Origin: Thermoflexus hugenholtzii JAD2 | Lineage (GTDB): Bacteria > Chloroflexota > UBA11872 > UBA12225 | DNA: 35,200 nucleotides | Reading direction: 5' to 3' | Assembly: GCA_945907765.1 (NCBI GenBank) | Contig: CAMDTO010000012.1 | Location: 1 to 35,200, forward strand | In this document: piece by piece, positions 1,018-22,784 of the stretch | Layout: every line of letters begins with the position of its first letter | Numbering within the stretch: the first letter of the stretch is position 1 | The notes under the pieces: generated by a model | Database searches by the model: none | The model's input: the letters and a program-made list of their open reading frames with translations, nothing else | Told to the model about the DNA's origin: nothing | Made by a program: the position numbers and the translations under genes

Positions 1018-3612
1018 GTGCGCAGGATCGGTGGTGGTCCGCCAGTGGTCGAGGACCGCTTGACCGCCGCGATGCAACTTGCGTCGATTCTGGTCCTCGA
1101 TGTCGGTGCAAATGACCGTCTCGGTCTGGGGCGACGCCTTGGGGTACCGGGGCCTTTGACAGAGCCTCGTCAGGCAAGTGGGCGCGTCCGTGAGGCCGAA
1201 CTCTTTGAGAAGGCGTGTCGGGAACGCTTGGGGCGGCTTGAGCTGACCTTGCTGCAGCAATTGCACCGGCTCTTGTCGAATGGGGCGACGCCTCTCGGGC
1301 CAGTGGTTGACGAGGCGATGCAGGATCGCGTTCGCCTTGGACTTAGTGGCGAGGGAAGCGACGCTGCCGGGAGAACGGTGTCGGCGGCGGACGACCCCTC
1401 AGATGCAGCCCATTCACCGATCCAACCTTTTGCTTCGTCGGGTGCCTTGCAGAAGTCTCCCGAACGCGTGCGCATCAGCGAGGATCAGGTCATCGCTGCT
1501 CTCGGTCCGGGCGGGTCGGTCAATGAGGCAATGGCAGGGTACGAACCCCGGCCCGGTCAGGTTCGGATGGCGCGTGCAGTGACGCGGTCGCTCAACGACG
1601 GCTTGCGGTTGGTCATTGAGGCGGGCACCGGGACGGGGAAGAGCTTGGCGTACCTGGTCCCAGCGTCAATGTTCGCGGTCGCGAATGGCCGACGCGTCGT
1701 GATTTCCACGAACACGATCACGCTTCAGGAGCAGCTGTTCAACAAGGACATCCCCGTCCTCCGCAAGGCGCTTCCTCACGACGTGCAGGTTGCAGTCCTC
1801 AAGGGACGCACGCACTACCTGTGCCTCAGACGGTGGCGGCTCCTCCTTTCCAATGGGCTCGACGGTGCTCTCGAGCGAATCCTGGCGGCGCGGATTGCGA
1901 TCTGGGTGCGGAACACGGAGACTGGTGATCGCGGTGAACTCGCGATTTCCGAGGCCGAGACGGCGATCTGGACGAACCACCTCGCGGCGGATGTGATGCA
2001 CTGCACGTCACGACTTTGCCGGGACAATCGCTCTGGCCGATGCTTCCTGGCCCGTGCCCGGCGCCGGGCCGAGGGCGCCCACCTGCTCGTCGTGAACCAT
2101 GCGCTGCTGCTTACGGATCGCGCGATGGAAAACCCGGTCCTTCCCGAATATGACGATGTGATCCTGGATGAGGCGCATCATCTGGAGGCGGTTGCAACCG
2201 ATCAACTCGGAACGACGGTGAGTGCGCGCGAAATCGGGTTCGAACTGGCCACGCTGAGCCAACCGCAGGGCGGGACCCGATTTGGAGGCACGGTTGCCCG
2301 GATCGCAGCCGTATTTGTCGAAGCCGCCGGAGATCCCGGACGCGAACAGATTGCGTCGATCACAGCGCCCATCCATGAGGCGTGCGAGGTGGCCCGCGTG
2401 GCGGTGTCAGCGCTTTTCGAGGTCTCGACAGACCTGATGGACCGTGCCACGAGAGGAGGCCGTGGGGAGGCGGTCGACCGCGAGCTCAGGTTGACGGAAA
2501 GCCATCGCGAAAGTGATGCGTGGGGCCCGGTGGCGATGGCGTGGGATGAAGCATCGGCGGCTCTCGCGACGGTCGACCGTGGCTTGCAGGGCATGGTTGC
2601 GGCGTTTGACCCGTTCGTCGGGAGTTCGGAGACGGTCGATGATGCGGTAGCCGATCTGGCGGCATCGCGTCAGGCGATCGGAGAGGCCCGTGAAAGCCTG
2701 ACCCGCATCCTCTCGGCGCCTGATGACGCAGAGGTCTACTGGATTGCCGGTGCCGGCCACGAGATGACGATGCATGCCGCACCGCTTGCGGTTGACGCGC
2801 TGTTGCAGTCGAACCTGTACGAGCAGAAGTCGGCGATCATCATGACCTCGGCGACGATCCAGGTAGGCGGATCGTTCCGGCACTTCAGGCACCGCCTTGG
2901 ATTGCCGCAGGACACGATGGTGCTTGAAGTCGCTTCGCCGTTCGACTACCCCAACCAGGCGCTATTGCTGGTACCTCGTGACTTGCCTGATCCGACGTCG
3001 CCGGCCCACGGCACGGTGATCCAGGACATCCTCGCTGGTGTGGCCAGTGCCATGAATGGCCGCACACTGGTGCTGTTCACTTCGTATGCGTCACTCCGGG
3101 CGGCGCATGATCACCTCCGCGAGATGACGCCACACCTGACAATCCTGGGGCAGGGAATTGACGGGCCACGAAGCGTGATCCTTGACCGTTTCCGTGCCAC
3201 GCCCAACGTAATCCTGCTTGGCACGAACAGTTTCTGGGAGGGCATCGATGTCGTCGGTGACGCACTGTCGTGCCTGGTGATCGTCAAACTGCCGTTTACG
3301 GTCCCGAGTGACCCGGTATTCGCCGCGCGGAGCGAGTTGCTTGAGGATTCATTCATGCAACTGGCGGTGCCCCAAGCGGTCCTTCGCCTGAAACAGGGGT
3401 TCGGCAGATTGATCCGGAGCGGCACCGATCGGGGTGTCGTGGCCATTCTCGATTCTCGTCTGGTGACGCGCCGCTACGGTCAGACATTCCTCGATTCGCT
3501 ACCTCCCGCGACCATCGTCAATTGTGGAGCGCGCGAGGTTGCTGGCTTGGTTGGTGACTGGATCACGAGGGTTCCTGACACTCAGGTACCTGAGCCAGTT
3601 TCCGGATCCTGA
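1018..3612 (+). CDS. dinG: DinG-type Fe-S helicase with a degenerate N-terminal exonuclease-like remnant
   Basis: Superfamily 2, XPD-like 5'-3' DNA helicase of about 864 residues, probably acting in repair or on R-loops. Visible motifs are Walker A EAGTGTGKS (about 201-209), four Fe-S cluster cysteines (about 269, 329, 334, 342), Walker B box DEAH (about 384-387), TSATI, the segment GTNSFWEGID, and motif VI FGRLIRSGTDRG near 795. Residues about 18-90 (LASILVLD, LGLGRRLGVPG, AELFEKACRERL) resemble the last third of the DnaQ-type exonuclease domain found in many Gram-positive and Chloroflexota DinG proteins. The catalytic DxE part and the HRALAD motif are absent. The start is uncertain: the frame is open back to 868. 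GTG at 1018 has GGAG 8 bases upstream; GTG 979 and ATG 1072 are alternatives. Confidence 0.9.
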   Translation: MRRIGGGPPVVEDRLTAAMQLASILVLDVGANDRLGLGRRLGVPGPLTEPRQASGRVREAELFEKACRERLGRLELTLLQQLHRLLSNGATPLGPVVDEAMQDRVRLGLSGEGSDAAGRTVSAADDPSDAAHSPIQPFASSGALQKSPERVRISEDQVIAALGPGGSVNEAMAGYEPRPGQVRMARAVTRSLNDGLRLVIEAGTGTGKSLAYLVPASMFAVANGRRVVISTNTITLQEQLFNKDIPVLRKALPHDVQVAVLKGRTHYLCLRRWRLLLSNGLDGALERILAARIAIWVRNTETGDRGELAISEAETAIWTNHLAADVMHCTSRLCRDNRSGRCFLARARRRAEGAHLLVVNHALLLTDRAMENPVLPEYDDVILDEAHHLEAVATDQLGTTVSAREIGFELATLSQPQGGTRFGGTVARIAAVFVEAAGDPGREQIASITAPIHEACEVARVAVSALFEVSTDLMDRATRGGRGEAVDRELRLTESHRESDAWGPVAMAWDEASAALATVDRGLQGMVAAFDPFVGSSETVDDAVADLAASRQAIGEARESLTRILSAPDDAEVYWIAGAGHEMTMHAAPLAVDALLQSNLYEQKSAIIMTSATIQVGGSFRHFRHRLGLPQDTMVLEVASPFDYPNQALLLVPRDLPDPTSPAHGTVIQDILAGVASAMNGRTLVLFTSYASLRAAHDHLREMTPHLTILGQGIDGPRSVILDRFRATPNVILLGTNSFWEGIDVVGDALSCLVIVKLPFTVPSDPVFAARSELLEDSFMQLAVPQAVLRLKQGFGRLIRSGTDRGVVAILDSRLVTRRYGQTFLDSLPPATIVNCGAREVAGLVGDWITRVPDTQVPEPVSGS

Positions 3613-3684
3613 CCTGGAACCGGACGGGGGTGACGCGCGGAACGGGTGCCGGGGGTGATCGCGCCAACCCGGACCTGGATGCGC

Positions 3685-3714
3685 TTGACAGTCGCAACGA
3701 TGCCAACGTACAGT
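3685..3714 (+). promoter_or_regulatory. Predicted promoter of the aro leader/operon
   Basis: A perfect -35 TTGACA (3685-3690) is followed after 18 bases by TACAGT (3709-3714, four of six matches to TATAAT). The predicted start point, about 3721, lies only some three bases before the ATG of the leader ORF at 3724, so the transcript would be leaderless or nearly so. It is the best-matching promoter between dinG and aroF. Confidence 0.6.
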
Positions 3715-3723
3715 CGCCTTGGT

Positions 3724-3825
3724 ATGAAGGTGATCACTCCCCTTTGCGCTCCCGTTGGGACAATTGTCTCGGGCAGCGCTGCGCTTGGCGGATCTTCCTT
3801 CTATTTTTTTAGTACCCCGGTGTGA
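3724..3825 (+). CDS. Attenuator leader peptide rich in Phe/Tyr (FYFF) for the aro operon
   Basis: A 33-codon ORF starts with ATG at 3724 and ends with TGA at 3823. It begins MKVITPLCAPVG and ends with GGSSFYFFSTPV. Codons 26-29 (3799-3810) read TTC TAT TTT TTT, that is Phe-Tyr-Phe-Phe, six codons before the stop. A hairpin overlaps the stop codon and a strong intrinsic terminator follows 38 bases later, ahead of aroF, the first enzyme of aromatic synthesis. This is the layout of classical ribosome-stalling attenuation in pheA, pheST and trp leaders. No Shine-Dalgarno sequence precedes the ATG, but the promoter spacing suggests a leaderless start. There are no Trp codons, so the likely sensed amino acids are Phe and Tyr. 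Function is inferred from layout; translation is not demonstrated. Confidence 0.72.
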   Translation: MKVITPLCAPVGTIVSGSAALGGSSFYFFSTPV

Positions 3826-3860
3826 GTTGACGGCCACGATCAGGCCGGACGCGCACCGGG
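3816..3860 (+). promoter_or_regulatory. Leader hairpin overlapping the leader-peptide stop codon
   Basis: CCCGGTG (3816-3822) pairs perfectly with CACCGGG (3854-3860), and an inner stem CGGCC (3831-3835) pairs with GGCCG (3843-3847). The left arm includes the last sense codons of the leader ORF. A ribosome stalled at the Phe-Tyr-Phe-Phe codons would cover this arm, while one that finishes or leaves would let it fold. This is the expected behaviour of a pause or 1:2 hairpin in an attenuator. I could not find a classical 2:3 antiterminator. One alternative pairing is 3740-3747 with 3865-3872, eight pairs including one G-U, which would open the terminator stem. Confidence 0.5.
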
Positions 3861-3863
3861 AGA

Positions 3864-3891
3864 GGCAGAGGGCAAATCCTCTGCCTTTTTT
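3864..3891 (+). terminator. Intrinsic terminator (attenuator) upstream of aroF
   Basis: A perfect 8-bp stem GGCAGAGG (3864-3871) / CCTCTGCC (3878-3885) has a 6-base loop and six T residues directly after it. It lies between the leader ORF and aroF, about 100 bases before the aroF start, and about 250 bases beyond the dinG stop. A role as the attenuator of the aro operon is more likely than a simple dinG terminator, because the predicted promoter and leader ORF lie just upstream of it. Confidence 0.85.
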
Positions 3892-3992
3892 GTTGCCCGC
3901 CGGCATCCTTGACCGGCCCGGCTTGACACACGGGTGGGCGCAGCTGCCCGCGAACCACATGGGACGACCGCCAAGAGGAGACTGGAACCGAA

Positions 3993-5066
3993 ATGATCAT
4001 CAAGATGAAGCGTGGCGCGACCGATGCCCAGGTTGAGGAAGTCGAGAGGCGGATCATCGCGGAGGGGTATACGCCGAACACGATCCGTGGCGTCGAGATG
4101 GCGGTGATCGCAGTGATCGGGAAGCGTCCCGAATGGATGATTGACACGGTGGAGTCGATGGCAGGCGTGGAGCAGGCTATTCCGATCGAGAAGCCATACA
4201 AGCTCGCCGCCCGGGACTTCCAGGCGGCGACCACCGAGATCCGTCTCGGTGCGGCGACACTTGGCAGCAATGACGTCGTCATCATGGCCGGTCCTTGCAC
4301 GGTTGAGACGCGTGACCAGTTGCTTGCCACCGCGCGTGGCGTGAAGGAACACGGTGGTCACGTCCTGCGTGGTGGCGCGTACAAGCCGCGTTCGTCGCCG
4401 TACAGTTTCCAAGGATTGGGCGAGGACGGCCTGAAGCTGCTTCAGGAGGCCCGTGAACTCTCCGGTCTGCCCATCATCACCGAGGTGATGGAACCTGGCA
4501 CGCTTGACACGGTGGTGCGGTACGCGGACGTCCTCCAGATTGGTGCGCGGAACTGCCAGAACTATCCTCTTTTGCGGGAAGTCGGCCGTACCCGGACGCC
4601 GGTCATGCTGAAGCGAGGCCCGAGTGTGACGGTGGAAGAATGGATCATGGCTGCGGAGTACATCCTCCACGGCGGCAACATGCAGGTGATGATGTGCGAG
4701 CGTGGGATCAAGACGTTCGAGAACTACACCCGGAACACGCTTGACATCTCCGCGATCCCGGTCATCAAGCGCCTCACCCACCTTCCAGTGATCGTTGACC
4801 CGAGCCATGGAACTGGCAAGTGGCACTTGGTCAAGTCGATGTGCCTGGCATCGGTGGCCGCGGGTGCCGACGGTGTCCTCATCGAAGTGCATCCGACTCC
4901 GGATACGGCGTTGTGCGACGGCGCCCAGTCGCTGACGATCGAGAACTTTGCCGATGCCGCCCGGGCAATCGCCCAGGTCGCAGCGGCGGTCGGACGCTCA
5001 GTCCCCGGCTTCGAACCTGATGGGAGCCGCACCGGAGCAGCAGTAGCGAGGGTTGCCGTGGCATGA
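3993..5066 (+). CDS. aroF: 3-deoxy-7-phosphoheptulonate (DAHP) synthase, type Ibeta with N-terminal regulatory domain
   Basis: Condenses phosphoenolpyruvate and erythrose 4-phosphate, the first committed step to chorismate. The 357-residue protein matches the Thermotoga-type layout: a ferredoxin/ACT-like N-terminal domain (about 1-65), then KPYKL and the TIM barrel with AGPCTVE (about 99-105), KPRSSPYSFQGLG (about 131), LKRGPSVT, ERGIKTFE and the metal-site DPSHGTGK (about 269). In that family the N-terminal domain binds Tyr or Phe as feedback inhibitors, which agrees with the Phe/Tyr codons in the upstream leader. The ATG has AGAGGAG about 12 bases upstream. It is the first gene of the aro operon, and its stop overlaps the aroA start by four bases. 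Confidence 0.96.
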   Translation: MIIKMKRGATDAQVEEVERRIIAEGYTPNTIRGVEMAVIAVIGKRPEWMIDTVESMAGVEQAIPIEKPYKLAARDFQAATTEIRLGAATLGSNDVVIMAGPCTVETRDQLLATARGVKEHGGHVLRGGAYKPRSSPYSFQGLGEDGLKLLQEARELSGLPIITEVMEPGTLDTVVRYADVLQIGARNCQNYPLLREVGRTRTPVMLKRGPSVTVEEWIMAAEYILHGGNMQVMMCERGIKTFENYTRNTLDISAIPVIKRLTHLPVIVDPSHGTGKWHLVKSMCLASVAAGADGVLIEVHPTPDTALCDGAQSLTIENFADAARAIAQVAAAVGRSVPGFEPDGSRTGAAVARVAVA

Positions 5067-6556
5067 GTGGCGAACGTCGTACCCAGCATCCCGTGACCGC
5101 TGAACCATCGTTCGTTCGCAATCCAAGCGACGCGGGGCTGCATGGCGGCATGCGGGTAGTGCGTGCCGTCGGGCACTTGTCGGGGGCACTGACCGTGCCC
5201 GGTGACAAGAGCATCACGCATCGGGCGGTGATGCTCAACGCCATCGCAACTGGAACCGCGACCGTCACCGGTGCCGGTCTCGGTGGCGATTGCCTGTCGA
5301 CGGCCGGCGCGATGCGGATGCTGGGTGCGCGCGTGCGTCGTCGGTGGCCGTCGGGCGAACTGACTGACGACCTCCGCCGCGACCCCGTCACGGGCGCGGA
5401 CACCCGTGATGACGCGGTGCTGCTGGTGGAAGGCGCAGGCCTGAATGGGTTGCGGGAACCCGCGGACGTGATCGATGCCGGGAACTCGGGAACCACGGCC
5501 AGGCTGCTGACCGGCATTCTGGCGGGACAGCCCTTCTTTAGCGTGCTGTCTGGTGACGGTTCGCTTCGGGGACGACCGATGGGCCGGGTGATCGCACCGC
5601 TTGGGGTCATGGGTGCCCAGGTTCGCGGACGCGCTGGTTCAACGCTCTTGCCGCTGTCGATAGCTCCTGCCCAATTGCAGGGGACGACCATCGAGATTCC
5701 AGTGGCGAGTGCGCAACTCAAGTCGGCGCTGATCCTTGCCGGTCTGTACGCGTCTGGCGAGACGGTGGTCATTTCGCCTGAAGAGAGTCGTGATCACACC
5801 GAGCGGATGCTCACTGCGCAAGGGGCGGACGTGCGGACCCAGGGGATGGCGGTCCGGGTGCGCCGGCCGTCTGGCCTCCTGGCAATCGATGTTGATGTAC
5901 CGGGAGATATCTCCAGTGCGGCCTTCTGGCTCGTGGCGGCCTGCATTCACCCGGATGCGACCGTGACGGTGCGGAATGTCGGGGTGAACCCGACCAGGAC
6001 GGGCATCATCGATGCCTTGACCCTCATGGGCGCGACCATCACGGTGACGAACGAGAGGACGGTTGGAGGTGAGCCGGTCGCAGACCTGACGGCATCGTCG
6101 TGCCGGTTGCGTGGCGTGCACATCGGCGGACCGATCATCCCGCGGCTCATCGACGAGGTGCCAATCCTTGCGGTGGCGGCGTCGGTGGCTTCAGGCACCA
6201 CGACGATCCGGGACGCGGCGGAATTGCGGGTGAAGGAAAGTGACCGGCTGCATGCCGTTGCGACCCACCTCGCGACGTTGGGAGTGGCGGTCTCGGAACA
6301 TCCGGATGGGCTGACCATCACTGGTGGGCGCATCGTGGGTGGCGAGGTGGCAAGCGAGGGTGACCACCGCATCGCAATGGCGCTTGCCATTGGTGCGCTC
6401 GTCGCGACCGGGCCGGTGCACATCAGCGGAGCGGCGGCCGTGGATATCTCCTACCCGGCGTTCTGGCCGACGCTATTCCGGATTGCTCCCGGTTGTCTTG
6501 GCGATCCGGGTGCGGAGCAGAGTGATCGTGGGACGAAGGACGGGTCTCGGAAATGA
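5063..6556 (+). CDS. aroA: 3-phosphoshikimate 1-carboxyvinyltransferase (EPSP synthase)
   Basis: Transfers the enolpyruvyl group of PEP to shikimate 3-phosphate. Motifs: PGDKSITHRA (about 46-55), GNSGTTARLL (about 140), a conserved RG-rich segment with GRPMGR (about 170), VKESDRLHA (about 390) and the C-terminal segment DHRIAMALA. At 497 residues it is longer than the usual 430 or so. About 30 extra residues precede the first strand (an internal ATG at 5150 would give the normal length), and about 20 residues are inserted near position 95-115 (RRWPSGELTDDL). The ATG at 5063 overlaps the aroF stop as ATGA, which favours it as the true, translationally coupled start. aroE follows with the same overlap. 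Confidence 0.96.
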   Translation: MSGERRTQHPVTAEPSFVRNPSDAGLHGGMRVVRAVGHLSGALTVPGDKSITHRAVMLNAIATGTATVTGAGLGGDCLSTAGAMRMLGARVRRRWPSGELTDDLRRDPVTGADTRDDAVLLVEGAGLNGLREPADVIDAGNSGTTARLLTGILAGQPFFSVLSGDGSLRGRPMGRVIAPLGVMGAQVRGRAGSTLLPLSIAPAQLQGTTIEIPVASAQLKSALILAGLYASGETVVISPEESRDHTERMLTAQGADVRTQGMAVRVRRPSGLLAIDVDVPGDISSAAFWLVAACIHPDATVTVRNVGVNPTRTGIIDALTLMGATITVTNERTVGGEPVADLTASSCRLRGVHIGGPIIPRLIDEVPILAVAASVASGTTTIRDAAELRVKESDRLHAVATHLATLGVAVSEHPDGLTITGGRIVGGEVASEGDHRIAMALAIGALVATGPVHISGAAAVDISYPAFWPTLFRIAPGCLGDPGAEQSDRGTKDGSRK

Positions 6557-7452
6557 GCATGGATGCGGTCCACGGCACGCCGGGGAGGCTGGCAGGAGTG
6601 ATCGGCTGGCCGCTGGGGCATTCGATCAGCCCGGCATTCCAGCAACCGGCGTTCGACGCGTGTGGCCTTGCCGTTTCCTACCGCGCAGTGCCAGTGCCGC
6701 CAGAAGGTCTTGAGGAATTCATTGCCGGCTTGCGGACTTCGGATGCACCGGTCTGGCTTGGCGTGAATGTGACGATCCCTCACAAGGAGGCCGTCGCGAA
6801 GCTGGTTGATGACGTCACTGAGGAGGCGAGGCTCATCGGGGCCGTCAATACCGTGATCTGCAACGGTGGTCGGCTGACCGGTCACAACACCGACGCCGAG
6901 GGGTTCCTTCGCGGGCTGACCGTCGATGGCACGTTCGACCCGGCTGGGGCCAGGACGCTCGTGATCGGATCCGGAGGTGCGTCACGGGCGATCTGCGTCG
7001 CGCTTCTGCAAGCGGGTGTCCACAAGCTGTCCATTGCGAACCGGTCGCCAGAGCGTGCGGAGGCGCTGGTCTGGCACCTGCAAGGTGCGTTTCCGGGCCG
7101 GGAGATCGAACCATTGCCGTTTGATGCAGGGGTGTTCCGGGAACTGCTCCGGTCGACGGATCTGCTCGTGAACACGACGAGCATCGGGATGGCCCAGGGG
7201 CCGTCGCCGGATACCTCACCTGTGCCAGTGGATGCGATTGGTCCGGGGTTGGTTGTCTACGACCTTGTCTACAATCCGGCGGAAACACCGTTGCTCCGGG
7301 CGGCCCGGATGGCAGGCGCGATCCCGGTTGAGGGATTGCCGATGCTGATCTATCAGGGGGCGGCGAGTTTCAGGCGGTGGACGGGGGTTGTTGCGCCGGT
7401 GGATGTCATGTTCGCCCACGGTCGGCGTGCGTTGGCGGCAAGGAATTCGTAG
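6553..7452 (+). CDS. aroE: Shikimate dehydrogenase (NADP+)
   Basis: Reduces 3-dehydroshikimate to shikimate. The 299-residue product shows the family order: [13 protein letters not shown] (about 17-29) for substrate binding, NVTIPHKEA (about 72-80) with the catalytic Lys, GAVNT (about 97-101), HNTDAEG with the catalytic Asp, and the NADP-binding loop GSGGASRA (about 139-146) followed by NRSPERAE. The extra 20-30 residues over the family mean are spread through the NADP domain. The ATG overlaps the aroA stop as ATGA, so the gene is in the same transcript. A 113-base gap separates it from aroC. Confidence 0.95.
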
Positions 7453-7565
7453 GTCGCGGTTGGTCATTGCGAGAAAGGCGTTGGCACTCCCACTCCACTC
7501 CGCCCTTTTGCATACGCTTCACTTTTGGCGCTATCAGGTTGTGGGAACCGGCGAGAGGGGTCAAG

Positions 7566-8729
7566 ATGGGTAATAGTTTCGGCACGATCTTCCGTGTGAC
7601 GACATGGGGCGAGTCGCATGGACGGGCGATTGGTGCGGTCATCGATGGCTGTCCGTCACTGGTACCTCTTGATGAGACGGACATCCAGCCTGACCTTGAC
7701 CGGCGCGCGCCGGGGCAATCCCATCTGGTGACCCAGCGGAAGGAATCGGACACGGTCCAGATCCTTGCGGGAGTGTTCGAGGGACAGACCTTGGGTACCC
7801 CGATTAGTCTAATGATCCCGAACGAGGATCAACGCAGCGGCGACTACCGTGAGGTCGAGCTGAAGTACCGGCCGAGCCATGCTGACTACACCTACGACGC
7901 CAAGTACGGCATCCGGGATTGGCGTGGGGGCGGCCGAACCAGTGCGCGCGAAACGGCTGCCCGTGTCGCGGCGGGTGCCGTTGCCCGCAAGGTGTTGGTA
8001 CGCGGATTCGGTGTTGAGATTGTTGCGTGGGTCTCGGCGATTCACACCTACCAAGTGGAGTGTGATCCGCGGACCGTGACACGCGAACTGGTTGACCAGA
8101 CCCCGGTGCGCTGTCCAGATCTCGGGGTCGCTGCCGAGATGATTTCCGCAATTGAGCAGGCGCGGAAGAATGGTGATTCGCTCGGCGGTGTCGTGACGTG
8201 CGTGGTCCGCGGATGCCCTCCCGGTTGGGGCCAACCGGTCTTCGATCGTCTCGAAGCCGATCTTGCCCGCGCCATGCTTAGTCTGCCGGCGACGAAGGGT
8301 TTCGAAATCGGGTCCGGTTTCGGGGGCACGATGTTGTCTGGATTAGCGCATAACGATCCGTTCTACATGGATGGCGCCCGTGTACGTACCCGAACGAACC
8401 GGAGTGGCGGTGTCCAAGGTGGCATCACCAATGGTGAAGATGTGCTATTCCGGGTTGCGTTCAAGCCAACCGCGACGGTGATGCGTGAGCAGGAAACGGT
8501 GACGCGAACTCATGAGGCGTCGACGATTGCGGGTCGGGGACGCCACGACCCCTGTGTCCTGCCACGTGCGGTGGCATTGGTCGAGGCCATGACGGCTCTG
8601 GTGCTCGTCGATCACGCACTGAGGCACGAGGCGACGCGTCCCCGTCATCCCGATGAAGCCGGGTACTCGGTCCCCCCCGATGACTGGGGCGCAGTGTCTG
8701 ACGATGATGGTGCGAGACACGGGCTGTGA
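7566..8729 (+). CDS. aroC: Chorismate synthase
   Basis: Converts EPSP to chorismate using reduced FMN as cofactor, completing the shikimate pathway. The 387-residue protein begins [19 protein letters not shown], the standard N-terminus, followed by [34 protein letters not shown], and [14 protein letters not shown] near the C-terminus, all typical family signatures. The frame is open further upstream, but ATG 7566 has a clear GAGAGGGG 5-14 bases before it and fits family start sites. The 113-base gap after aroE is the largest inside the aro operon, yet I see no good promoter or terminator in it. The stop overlaps the aroK start. Confidence 0.96.
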
Positions 8730-9346
8730 ACTTCCACCATGTAGTGCTTGTCGGGTTGTCCGGGAGTGGAAAGTCGACGATCGGACCACGACTGGCTCGT
8801 CGCCTTGATTTGTTGTTCATCGACACCGACAAGACGGTCGTCGCGCGCGCCGGATGTCCGATTGACGAAATCTTTGCCACCCGCGGTGAGACGACGTTTC
8901 GCGCGTTCGAGCGTGAAGCGGTTCGCGAGGCCATCGCTGGTCCGAGATCGGTGATCGCCACCGGGGGAGGCGCGCCCGTCGACCCGGAGAACTTCCGTCA
9001 ACTTTGGGAAGGTAATGTGGTGATCTGGCTGGACGCGCCGATGGAGGTCCTGATCTCGCGGATGGAGGGATCGCAGCGGGCAGGGCGGGAAAAGCGTCCG
9101 CTTCTGGCCCATGGTGGTGCGAGGCTTCGACTGCCGGCACTTCTCGAGGCACGTGCGCCGATCTACTCGCAGGCGCACGTGAGGGTCGAGACCGGGGTTG
9201 TGCGTCCGGAAGTCGTGGTGACCGAGATCATCAGGCAGGTTCGTCCGGGCCAGGCACGCACGCGAAGTGCTGCGCGCGTGATCGCATCCCCATCTGCCTC
9301 GGCGCGTCGAGGGAAGGGTGGACAGGTCGGGAGGGCTCGCGATTGA
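8726..9346 (+). CDS. aroK: Shikimate kinase
   Basis: Phosphorylates shikimate at the 3-OH using ATP. It is a P-loop kinase of 206 residues with Walker [10 protein letters not shown] (about 10-18), the shikimate-binding DTDK (about 33-36), [10 protein letters not shown], the GGGAP segment (about 79-84) and a lid with REKRPLLA (about 121-128). The last 35 residues or so are basic and low in complexity (many Arg, Ser, Ala, Gly), extending past the usual 170-residue domain. The start is GTG, overlapping the aroC stop as GTGA, and the gene ends in a TTGA overlap with aroB, so translation is probably coupled along the run. Confidence 0.94.
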
Positions 9347-10452
9347 TCACCGAATACCGCCCTCCGGCACCTGTCCCTGAGGCCTTCGTTGGCATCCCGA
9401 CGCACCTTTCTTTCGGAAACGGAAGCGTCGCTGACCTTGGTCAACGGATCACTGAACTTGGCTTCCGGGGCCGGGTGTTTGTCATTACCGATGACAAGGT
9501 CGGCCCGGTTCACGGCCCCAAAGTTATGGAGTCGCTGGCCGATGCCGGGTTCGTGCCGGAATGCCACGCCGTGCCGGCGGGTGAGGCTTCGAAGTCCCTT
9601 GACCGCGCTGCCGAACTGTACGAGTGGCTTGCTGCACATCGGGCGGAGCGCCGTGACGTAGTCGTCGCGCTTGGAGGTGGTGTCGTTGGAGATCTGGCGG
9701 GATTCGTTGCCGCGACGTTCCTGCGAGGCATCACGTTGGTGCAGGTGCCAACGACGGTCCTGTCGATGGTTGACAGTTCTGTCGGTGGGAAGACGGCGGT
9801 CAACCTCCCAGCGGGAAAGAACCTCGTAGGCGCTTTCCATCCGCCTGCCCTCACGCTTGTCGATGTCGGCCTCATCACTGGGCTCCCCGTCCGCGAGGTG
9901 CGGGCCGGGTGGGCGGAGGTGATCAAGACCGCCGCGATTTTTGACCCGGCTCTTCTCGATGAACTCGATACGGTTCCCTTGGATCCAATGAAGCCAGACA
10001 GGATGGCGGACATCCTTGAACGGACGGTGCGCTGGAAGGAACGGGTCGTTCACGAGGACCCACGCGAGCGGGGCGTCAGGGTTGTGCTCAACTTCGGGCA
10101 CACGGTCGGGCACGCCATCGAGGCGACGACGGGTTATGGGACGTACTTGCACGGTGAGGCGGTGGCGATCGGTTTGGTAGCAGCGACACGGCTCAGCGTG
10201 CGTGCGGGATTCCTGCACGCCGGAGTGGCCGTCAGAATCGAGGCCATGCTGGAACGGACGGGGCTGCCGACGCGATATGACCCAGCGTTCACCAATGCAG
10301 GCGCTATCCTTGACCGCACGTTGACCGATAAGAAGGTCGAGTCGAACAAGGTTCGATGGGTTCTGTTGCGTGGCATCGGGCAGGTCGTGGTGACGGATGA
10401 GATCAGCGCTGACGTCATCAGGGACGTGGTCGAAGGATTGGTTCTTCGTTAG
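9343..10452 (+). CDS. aroB: 3-dehydroquinate synthase
   Basis: NAD- and metal-dependent cyclisation of DAHP to 3-dehydroquinate, the second step of the pathway. The 369-residue protein shows GGGVVGDLAGF (about 111-121), VPTTVLSMVDSSVGGKTAVN (about 135-154), AEVIKTA (about 192-198) and the metal-site segment NFGHTVGHAIE (about 250-260) with HGEAVAIG after it. The start is TTG at 9343, overlapping the aroK stop as TTGA. This is the last gene of the aro operon; 3-dehydroquinate dehydratase (aroD/aroQ), needed for the next step, is not in this window. Confidence 0.95.
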   Translation: MITEYRPPAPVPEAFVGIPTHLSFGNGSVADLGQRITELGFRGRVFVITDDKVGPVHGPKVMESLADAGFVPECHAVPAGEASKSLDRAAELYEWLAAHRAERRDVVVALGGGVVGDLAGFVAATFLRGITLVQVPTTVLSMVDSSVGGKTAVNLPAGKNLVGAFHPPALTLVDVGLITGLPVREVRAGWAEVIKTAAIFDPALLDELDTVPLDPMKPDRMADILERTVRWKERVVHEDPRERGVRVVLNFGHTVGHAIEATTGYGTYLHGEAVAIGLVAATRLSVRAGFLHAGVAVRIEAMLERTGLPTRYDPAFTNAGAILDRTLTDKKVESNKVRWVLLRGIGQVVVTDEISADVIRDVVEGLVLR

Positions 10453-11597: not shown

Positions 11598-11637
11598 GGC
11601 CGGATGAAGGGTGACCTTCGTTCCGGCCTTGCTTGTT
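11598..11637 (+). terminator. Possible terminator after the small membrane protein gene
   Basis: A long stem GGCCGGA (11598-11604) / TCCGGCC (11622-11628) extends inward with GAAGG / CCTTC around a short loop. The following bases, TTGCTTGTTT, are T-rich but interrupted, so termination may be only partial. It lies between the small membrane protein gene and the greA-fusion promoter. Confidence 0.55.
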
Positions 11638-11701
11638 TATGTGGCCCTTGCAGCAAAGCGCTCTCCGGGAAATTGCATCCGGTGTGCTCGGGGGTGGCCG
11701 G

Positions 11702-11707
11702 TACAAT
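11702..11707 (+). promoter_or_regulatory. -10 box of a probably leaderless greA-fusion transcript
   Basis: TACAAT (five of six matches to TATAAT) ends six bases before the ATG at 11714, so a start point at the normal distance falls on or beside the ATG. No Shine-Dalgarno sequence is present. I see no good -35 at 16-18 bases; TTGCAT lies too far away (23-base gap). Confidence 0.45.
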
Positions 11708-11713
11708 CAACCC

Positions 11714-12598
11714 ATGACGTCATCCGTACCAACCGCACCAACCGCACCAACCCGGCTTGGCCAGGCTCTGGATGATTACCGGGCCCGGATCTCTCCTGAT
11801 GATCATGCGCGTCTACGCAAGTTTGTGACCTGGCTTGGCGTTAGCGTGACCGTGGAAGCAGTACAGGCGTACAAGATCGAGGAGTTCCTTGCCCAACAGG
11901 TCAAAACTTCGATGTCCCCCCGTGCGTACCTTGCTCCACTGAAGACGTTTTTTGCGTACGTCTTGGAGCAGCGCCTCATACCCAGTGACCCGATGAAAAA
12001 TGTCCGTTTGCCGAGGACTGGGGTCGCTGCGGTCAAGAAGAGCGCTGCGGCGGCTGCCGCAGCAGCGGCAGCGACAGGTTCACCAACGCACGTTGCAACG
12101 ACATCCGGGACGTCACGCATCGAAGACGTGGAATACGTCAGCCGGGCCCGGCACGAAGAGATGAAGAAGGAACTCGACCGGCTTCAAGTCGACGAGAGAC
12201 AGCGCATCAGCGCACTCCTCGAGGAGGCGATCAAGGACGGCGACCTTTCCGAGAATGCCGGATACGAGGACGCCAAGATGCGTCAGGGGTTGCTTGAGGC
12301 GAGAATTCGCGACCTTGAGAGCAAACTCAGGCACGTGGCGTTGATCGAGGATCAGGACAACGACGGCGCCACGATTGGTGTTGGAAGCCGTGTCAAGTTG
12401 CGTGAAGTTGCCACGGATGACGAAGTGGAATATCAGGTCGTTGGGCCGGAGGAGACCGACCCGCGGCTTGGAAAGATTTCCCATCGCTCACCGGTTGGCA
12501 AGGCCCTCATCGGCAAGACCGCCGGCGAGGAGACCGATGTGGTCACCCCTGGTGGCACCACCCGTTACCTGATCGTTTCGGTTGAACGGGGGGCGTGA
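11714..12598 (+). CDS. greA: GreA-type transcript cleavage factor fused to a recombinase-like SAM/core-binding N-terminal domain
   Basis: A 294-residue two-part protein. Residues about 150-294 are a complete GreA: the coiled coil with its acidic tip GDLSENAGYEDAK (about 176-188), whose Asp and Glu enter the RNA polymerase channel to stimulate RNA cleavage, then the FKBP-like domain ending GGTTRYLIVSVE. Residues about 12-105 look like the helical N-terminal SAM-like domain of tyrosine recombinases (FVTWLGV, IEEFLAQQV, SPRAYLAPLKTFFAYVLEQ, DPMKNVRLPR). No recombinase catalytic domain is present. A Lys-Lys-Ser and alanine run (about 107-121) links the two. Ordinary GreA has about 158 residues. 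ATG 11714 is chosen because a -10 box sits just before it; an upstream in-frame ATG at 11633 lies inside the preceding hairpin tail. Confidence 0.88.
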   Translation: MTSSVPTAPTAPTRLGQALDDYRARISPDDHARLRKFVTWLGVSVTVEAVQAYKIEEFLAQQVKTSMSPRAYLAPLKTFFAYVLEQRLIPSDPMKNVRLPRTGVAAVKKSAAAAAAAAAATGSPTHVATTSGTSRIEDVEYVSRARHEEMKKELDRLQVDERQRISALLEEAIKDGDLSENAGYEDAKMRQGLLEARIRDLESKLRHVALIEDQDNDGATIGVGSRVKLREVATDDEVEYQVVGPEETDPRLGKISHRSPVGKALIGKTAGEETDVVTPGGTTRYLIVSVERGA

Positions 12599-22420: not shown

Positions 22421-22454
22421 CAAAAAACCTCGCGTCCCTTGGGGACGAGAGGTT
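22421..22454 (-). terminator. T-box intrinsic terminator of the trp operon
   Basis: On the - strand AACCTC-T-CGTCCC pairs with GGGACG-C-GAGGTT (12 pairs, one mismatch) around a three-base loop, ending in a T-run at 22427-22422. The 5' arm follows directly after the T-box sequence, as expected for the mutually exclusive terminator/antiterminator of a T-box. Confidence 0.93.
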
Positions 22455-22659
22455 GCTTCCAACGACCCGCGGTGCCACCCCGCTTAGTGCCACTGTTTTC
22501 AGACGCACCCGGAAGTGCGCAATGGAAAGGTGTCACTCACTCTTGTCAGATACAGGTGAACGGTTTCAAAAAACCGGCAACGATACCTGCCACTAGGGTA
22601 ACGGGTGTGGTTCCCGGATTGGCTACTTGCGCGTTGATACGACGCAGGTTCACCGTTCA
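22421..22659 (-). ncRNA. T-box riboswitch (tRNA-Trp sensing) of the trp operon
   Basis: The T-box core reads GGGGTGGCACCGCGGG on the - strand (about 22482-22467), preceded by AAGC. Its TGGC bulge is complementary to GCCA, the 3' end expected for tRNA-Trp with discriminator G. Stem I is closed by TGAACGGT (22659-22652) pairing perfectly with ACCGTTCA (22564-22557), a span of 103 bases as is normal. TGG, the Trp codon, sits at 22592-22590 on the 3' side of stem I, where the specifier is expected. A short Stem III (CGCAC/GTGCG) lies before the core and the terminator follows. Uncharged tRNA-Trp should favour the antiterminator and read-through into trpE. The specifier is assigned by position only, not by a full fold. 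Confidence 0.93.
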
Positions 22660-22661
22660 GC

Positions 22662-22784
22662 TCACTGGTCCATTCCGTCCCGCGAACCCCGACAGGCTTC
22701 CACCGTTGCCTGCTTCTCTGGGGAGGTGCGTCCTGCGACGTACTCGTCCGGATCGTTGCTGGTCACTATGGCGTCCCGGCGCAT
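22662..22784 (-). CDS. Possible 40-codon ORF between the trp promoter and the T-box
   Basis: ATG at 22784 opens a 40-codon frame (starts MRRDAIVTSNDPDEY, ends SRDGMDQ) that stops two bases before T-box stem I. The predicted transcription start lies about 17 bases upstream of the ATG. It lacks a clear Shine-Dalgarno sequence, contains no Trp codon and resembles nothing I know. The frame is open further upstream, so the fit may be chance. Confidence 0.22.
   Translation of the reverse strand: MRRDAIVTSNDPDEYVAGRTSPEKQATVEACRGSRDGMDQ

Follow-up and report, generated by a model that had tools for sequence, protein, structure and literature searches.

The window analysed here, a stretch of 35,200 nucleotides from Thermoflexus hugenholtzii JAD2, carries a group of shikimate-pathway genes on its plus strand. 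The first of them (3993–5066) encodes a type I-beta DAHP synthase with an N-terminal ferredoxin-like domain (PRK08673, TIGR01361, PF18152), and it is followed by aroA (5063–6556), aroE (6553–7452), aroC (within 7377–8729), aroK (8726–9346), and aroB (9343–10452). The genes stand in the order aroF-A-E-C-K-B in tight succession with overlapping ends, and they probably form a single transcript, as far as can be inferred from the sequence alone. The DAHP synthase gene is inferred to be the first gene of the regulated operon described below. The earlier note, made without database searches, had assigned this enzyme to the Tyr/Phe-regulated type; the only basis for that assignment is the N-terminal ferredoxin-like regulatory domain PF18152. 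Farther downstream on the same strand, a GreA/GreB protein (11633–12598) has a 160-residue N-terminal extension joined to it by a poly-Ala linker. The Gre domains are the only ones recognized by Pfam, and by eye the extension resembles an integrase core-binding domain.

A compact leader element precedes aroF on the plus strand. Its promoter (3685–3714) consists of a −35 box, TTGACA (3685–3690), and a −10 box, TACAGT (3709–3714), which are separated by an 18-nt spacer and match the consensus at 10 of 12 positions. A leader-peptide ORF of 33 codons (3724–3825) extends from the ATG at 3724 to the TGA at 3823–3825 and encodes the peptide MKVITPLCAPVGTIVSGSAALGGSSFYFFSTPV; its frame and its aromatic run are kept in relatives. 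The AUG lies 9 nt downstream of the end of the −10 box; therefore, a nearly leaderless mRNA is probable, with a transcript start at the AUG or a few nucleotides away, which again is inferred from sequence alone. The regulatory codons Phe-Tyr-Phe-Phe (TTC TAT TTT TTT, 3799–3810) begin 17, 14, 11, and 8 nt 5′ of a long helix, helix A (3816–3860). The 5′ arm of helix A (CCCGGTGTG, 3816–3824) includes the start of the stop codon, and its 3′ arm (CGCACCGGG, 3852–3860) is supported by folding and by helix covariation. Three nucleotides separate the last base of helix A from the first core base of an intrinsic terminator, terminator B (3864–3891), in which GGCAGAGG (3864–3871) and CCTCTGCC (3878–3885) flank a loop and are followed by a U tract; the sequence reads GGCAGAGG-GCAAAT-CCTCTGCC-TTTTTTG. 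The RNA from 3811 to 3892 folded into two hairpins, 3816–3860 and 3861–3888, with an energy of −49.2 kcal/mol (z = −6.5; none of 200 shuffled sequences folded equally well). A simple terminator scan overlooked terminator B, and the sole site that it gave, a weaker one, was located at 3777–3790. The components that the earlier note had described upstream of aroF, namely the 33-codon ORF with its TTC TAT TTT TTT run, the promoter, the hairpin, and the terminator, all held at these positions.

To survey the element in relatives, upstream regions were gathered via the DAHP synthase at ranks ranging from genus to phylum, and 175 regions were examined. An intrinsic terminator was present in 85 of them, and in 75 of these 85 loci a strong helix ends 0–5 nt 5′ of the terminator (the count permitted a gap of up to 8 nt). 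The stop codon of an ORF falls inside helix A in all 75 loci. At least two aromatic codons occur in the 30 nt preceding the helix in 74 of the 75, and 60 of these 74 have the start of the last aromatic codon 6–9 nt from the helix (mode 8). Over the final eight codons upstream of helix A, Phe, Tyr, or Trp accounts for 49% of the residues. A −35/−10 pair, mostly strong, was found upstream of the leader ORF in 71 of the 75 loci, and roughly two thirds of the loci have the AUG 5–13 nt past the −10 box. The 75 DAHP-synthase loci come from several Chloroflexota classes and have an identical order of parts, which places the element far beyond chance. Many Chloroflexota DAHP-synthase loci lack the element, and within the 175 regions no terminator is present in the Anaerolineae and certain other groups.

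The leader peptides are otherwise very divergent; examples, each read up to the stop codon, are FFSTPV, YYYFSRPV, YYYLFTKPEGPA, YTFAFTRPARLGAHVM, MTTYRYFRSPV, and FSFYFYYWFSPPA, the last two being from lake Chloroflexi (records named Candidatus Limnocylindrus and the like) and from Ktedonosporobacter. An alignment upstream of aroF, proposed in the earlier note as a check, was passed: the Phe/Tyr run, the frame, the position of the stop codon relative to the helix, and the terminator are kept in relatives and the rest drifts. Such an element in Chloroflexota, which had been new to the earlier reader, is not confined to this locus and occurs in several classes of the phylum. Two smaller observations concern the leaders themselves. 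In lake Chloroflexi (L068–L103), the leaders have 11 residues (MTTYRYFRSPV, MANRFYFRYPA) with the AUG 6–7 nt past the −10 box. CTTTAG or CTTTCG frequently follows the aromatic codons, even across classes (for example in L001, L012, L067, and L083), with Phe-Ser or Phe-Arg as the last codons, and this recurrent sequence may conceivably do more than code.

An ordinary terminator of the neighboring helicase gene, combined with a chance ORF and an aroF promoter located further downstream, could be proposed instead, and a helicase gene on the same strand does end at 3612. However, the promoter sits between the helicase gene and the terminator. The genes upstream of the leader vary by lineage, while the leader and the terminator remain with the DAHP synthase, and the same element occurs upstream of tyrS elsewhere in the genome. 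This explanation can be all but excluded. The sequence GCAGAGG was considered separately as a stock terminator and was rejected, with a single match in the genome of the window.

Helix A was evaluated by covariation. In a structure-blind alignment, double compensatory changes were found at 5 of its 9 pairs. Its covariation score of 0.266 was above those of all 500 shuffles (mean 0.141), and slid versions of the helix reached at most 0.142. In the alignment, 97.6% of the cells of A and B pair. This value is biased because the loci were picked for a good helix; the shuffle result is not explained by that alone. The helices were located by a pairing-maximising search; therefore, the covariation test and the duplex-partner tests described below are partly biased towards A. 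Helix A exceeded the 95th percentile of dinucleotide-shuffled controls in 73% of the terminator-bearing loci, and 38 of the 47 non-redundant loci have a best upstream helix that ends 1–5 nt before the core of B. Upstream of trpE in the same class, most terminators are not abutted by a comparable helix (scores mostly 11–19, versus a median of 27). RNAalifold gave no consensus over all 47 loci because the loops are too unlike; a 20-locus subset gave one.

A covariance model built on A and B was run on 400 sampled Chloroflexota genomes and matched 140 of them, with the weaker matches inspected only in part. In one relative (G007, C170), a similar plain terminator behind a gene was among the matches; therefore, a match is not always an attenuator. 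Besides the I-beta enzymes, matches were found upstream of E. coli-type (AroFGH) DAHP synthases (L303 and L313), a chorismate mutase (L393), a chorismate mutase-prephenate dehydrogenase fusion (TyrA, L316), tyrS, and pheS. The genome of the window contains a second copy outside the window, upstream of tyrS (contig 2, 24054–24153; G000, L300), whose leader has Tyr as its only aromatic residue and terminates in GLYSYRIPV before the stop codon. The tyrS leaders finish with YSYRIPV or YPYLIPV directly before the stop codon, or contain YCYYY or YYYY. Phe codons are present in 46 of 47 DAHP-synthase leaders versus 1 of 12 tyrS/chorismate-mutase leaders; the tyrS and chorismate mutase/TyrA leaders use almost exclusively Tyr codons, whereas the DAHP-synthase leaders use both Phe and Tyr. 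Codon identity therefore tracks the regulated gene, as ribosome-mediated attenuation predicts. Few independent lineages contribute the tyrS and chorismate-mutase loci, and the Fisher p values are therefore over-optimistic; the direction is clear. The pheS leaders, which have one Phe plus Trp or His, show a poor codon-target fit, and no attenuator of this type was found upstream of PheA/PDT genes. Within these sets, L316, L317, and L393 have Tyr-rich leaders upstream of chorismate mutase, with the prephenate dehydrogenase fusion only in L316. The pheS loci L350–L355, all from a single genus, carry WAWQF or a similar run with Trp and one Phe, for which there is no simple codon-target match.

In a different explanation, the ORF would be a bystander, and the RNA itself would detect Phe, Tyr, or their tRNAs as a ligand-binding riboswitch or T-box; aromatic genes of this phylum do use T-boxes, as at trpE in the same window. 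However, no conserved loop or aptamer sequence was found across the loci, and the reading frame and codon identity are kept and track the target gene. No Rfam family exceeded the threshold in the window, 3600–4000 gave only chance-level matches, and a match to the T-box (RF00230) or to a known riboswitch was absent in the leader. Direct sensing by RNA is thus close to being ruled out. The T-box leader upstream of trpE lies on the minus strand (22438–22765; RF00230, 71 bits, E = 2.3e-15, under the gathering score of 93), and the terminator behind it is conserved in the class. Therefore, Trp synthesis uses a T-box, and the common pathway uses a leader peptide.

The behavior of the two hairpins was modeled by folding with ribosome masks at two positions, in line with a folding check that the earlier note had suggested. 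In the 47 non-redundant loci, the probability of helix A, P(A), fell from 0.98 for a ribosome stalled on the first aromatic codon to 0.00 for a ribosome on the stop codon, and P(B) was 1.00 in both states. The model thus predicts that the ribosome position is sensed by A and that A and B are not mutually exclusive by base pairing. B is thermodynamically stable beside A at every locus; therefore, equilibrium folding does nothing against termination during stalling. The layout of ribosome-mediated attenuation claimed by the earlier note accordingly held for its logic but failed as a base-pairing switch, with no overlapping antiterminator.

The classical four-segment attenuator, as in E. coli trp, thr, and his, is the obvious model for such a locus. 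In that model, the antiterminator shares bases of the terminator 5′ arm, and the two structures exclude each other. The parts and their order are alike: a leader ORF with regulatory codons, a helix, and a terminator. However, a helix scan that allowed overlap showed no enrichment at B-overlapping positions in the 47 non-redundant loci, where the 3′ ends of upstream helices peak just before B, while the same scan recovered the overlaps of approximately 8, 4, and 13 nt in E. coli thr, trp, and his. For the E. coli pheL leader, the scan yields the hairpin holding its Phe codons instead. The pairing of helix A is not continued into B (3.9 of 10 pairs, versus 4.5 in mixed loci), and the 5′ arm of B has no locus-specific partner, either in helix A (−8.5 kcal/mol) or in the coding region (−8.6 kcal/mol), compared with −8.6 kcal/mol. 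Likewise, no protector segment that pairs with the 5′ arm of A was detected (−10.9 kcal/mol for the own upstream sequence, −11.4 kcal/mol for those of other loci). The arms of A served as a positive control for the duplex test and gave −21.0 kcal/mol versus −10.7 kcal/mol for mixed loci. The cross-locus control is blind to a partner kept in all loci; the masked folds, in which B is fully formed in either ribosome state, cover that case. A pairing between CUUCUAC in the aromatic codons and GCAGAGG, matching at 6 of 7 positions by eye, was dropped, as many lineages lack it and its logic is reversed. The four-segment model is thus largely refuted and very unlikely to apply. The element fulfills the broad-sense definition of a leader-peptide attenuator in four respects (codon run, codon-target match, intrinsic terminator, and, in silico, ribosome-dependent structure), whereas increased read-through under amino acid shortage is a prediction. 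It does not fulfill the classical four-segment definition (trp/his/thr), for which neither an antiterminator sharing terminator bases nor a protector segment was found.

We therefore consider it likely that the element controls the shikimate operon by ribosome-mediated transcription attenuation in response to charged tRNA-Phe and tRNA-Tyr, with A acting on B by adjacency. Ribosome-mediated attenuation as such is strongly supported and very likely; the direction of regulation is inferred from the logic, without support from transcripts, ribosome profiling, or reporters. With ample Phe and Tyr, the ribosome would proceed to the stop codon and mask the 5′ arm of A, so that A would fail to form, B would form, and transcription would end upstream of aroF. 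When Phe or Tyr is short, the ribosome would stall on the aromatic codons with its leading edge at the base of A. Helix A would then form, B would be blocked by adjacency, and the polymerase would continue into aroF. A and B share no bases; therefore, A must act through adjacency. In the likeliest route, A would sequester 45–76 nt and bring the stalled ribosome near B, so that closure of the terminator stem at the RNA polymerase would be hindered, as in pyrBI-type attenuation. In a second route, the rigid helix A would itself be unable to fit into the RNA exit channel next to the base of B. Both routes are physical hypotheses and are inferred. An untranslated leader would also form A; therefore, a pure helix version predicts read-through without translation.

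The distances between the ribosome and B could be computed for the 47 loci. When A is closed, the RNA from the stalled A site to B shortens from a median of 73 nt to 18 nt; the distance from the stalled ribosome to B is then 11–29 nt (typically 18) and is below 27 nt in 45 of the 47 loci. The distance from the stop codon to B is 23–61 nt, being at least 27 nt in 39 loci and 23–26 nt, slightly within the E. coli threshold, in the remaining 8. In E. coli, a terminator is repressed by a ribosome nearer than about 27–30 nt; for tR2, repression by a close ribosome is nearly complete and termination is at its maximum beyond ~27–30 nt, and pyrBI behaves alike (PMC4824070). The computed distances are compatible with a role of A in carrying the stalled ribosome to the terminator, which is an inference without experiment.

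Helix A could also be a pause or synchronising hairpin that holds the polymerase in the terminator until the ribosome arrives, in which case the outcome would be decided by timing rather than by adjacency. A ends ~10–30 nt before the U tract, a spacing from which RNA hairpins are able to stabilise pausing. In the masked folds, moreover, a ribosome that reaches the stop codon disrupts A. However, pausing alone gives no account of read-through with a ribosome stalled upstream, and we regard this alternative as unlikely.

The adjacency model has relatives among known systems. Leader-peptide attenuation is a textbook mechanism that is known mainly from Proteobacteria and Actinobacteria. The trp, his, thr, and phe attenuators of Proteobacteria likewise have codons for the product amino acid in a leader ORF and a terminator before the first gene, and the ribosome sets the RNA structure. 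However, the antiterminator overlaps a terminator arm by about 4, 13, and 8 nt in trp, his, and thr, respectively, whereas the Chloroflexota helix A only abuts it, and the Chloroflexota leader mRNA is near-leaderless, unlike the proteobacterial trp, his, thr, and phe leaders. In pyrBI-type attenuation, a ribosome near the terminator stops hairpin closure and a competing antiterminator is unnecessary (PMC4824070). That system responds to UTP via polymerase pausing, and its ribosome approaches by translating, whereas the Chloroflexota ribosome would be stalled upstream and brought near by the helix.

Outside the Proteobacteria, the DAHP synthase gene aroF of Acholeplasma is preceded by the uORFC-13-1 motif, which combines a uORF containing one or more Phe codons with an additional stem and a neighboring terminator (PMC8632094). 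Attenuation was proposed for this motif on the basis of 24 sequences from one genus and environmental DNA, with at least one Phe codon (PMC8632094). No phylum-wide set, Tyr codons, or tyrS or TyrA members were reported for it (PMC8632094), and homology to the Chloroflexota element is not implied. The leader ORFs of mycobacterial cys operons are also short, with a run of the relevant (Cys) codons near the stop, in high-GC bacteria (PMC1262725); however, they lack a conserved terminator hairpin, whereas the Chloroflexota terminator and abutting helix are conserved. The leader-peptide attenuators of Actinobacteria and those of hisS/hisZ in bacilli are ribosome-mediated as well (PMC1262725, PMC2965389), and actinobacterial trp attenuators differ from the present element in their conserved terminator/antiterminator complementarity. 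A study from 2010 stated that such systems were known only from Proteobacteria, Actinobacteria, and its own bacilli and did not mention Chloroflexi (PMC2965389). We found no leader-peptide attenuator in Chloroflexota in the literature searched; subscription papers were mostly not covered, and a prior mention cannot be excluded. The attenuation logic is already known; what appears to be new is the abutting arrangement, the near-leaderless mRNA, and the distribution across the phylum.

A bolder reading goes beyond the single operon. The elements would form an attenuator class without any mutually exclusive antiterminator, in which a stall-dependent abutting helix delivers the ribosome, or itself, to the exit channel and an intact terminator fails. 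Such a class would control a codon-matched regulon (DAHP synthases of two types, chorismate mutase/TyrA, tyrS, and pheS) across Chloroflexota. We would not place this reading on either side of the balance at present. The many lineages, with spacings of 0–5 nt, provide a natural series for testing a stalled ribosome and an adjacent helix against an intrinsic terminator, and the leader peptides of ~11 residues in some lineages offer a compact switch. If the proposed mechanism is true, leader-peptide attenuation would be far more widespread than previously recognized, and base-pair exclusion between antiterminator and terminator would not be required for it.
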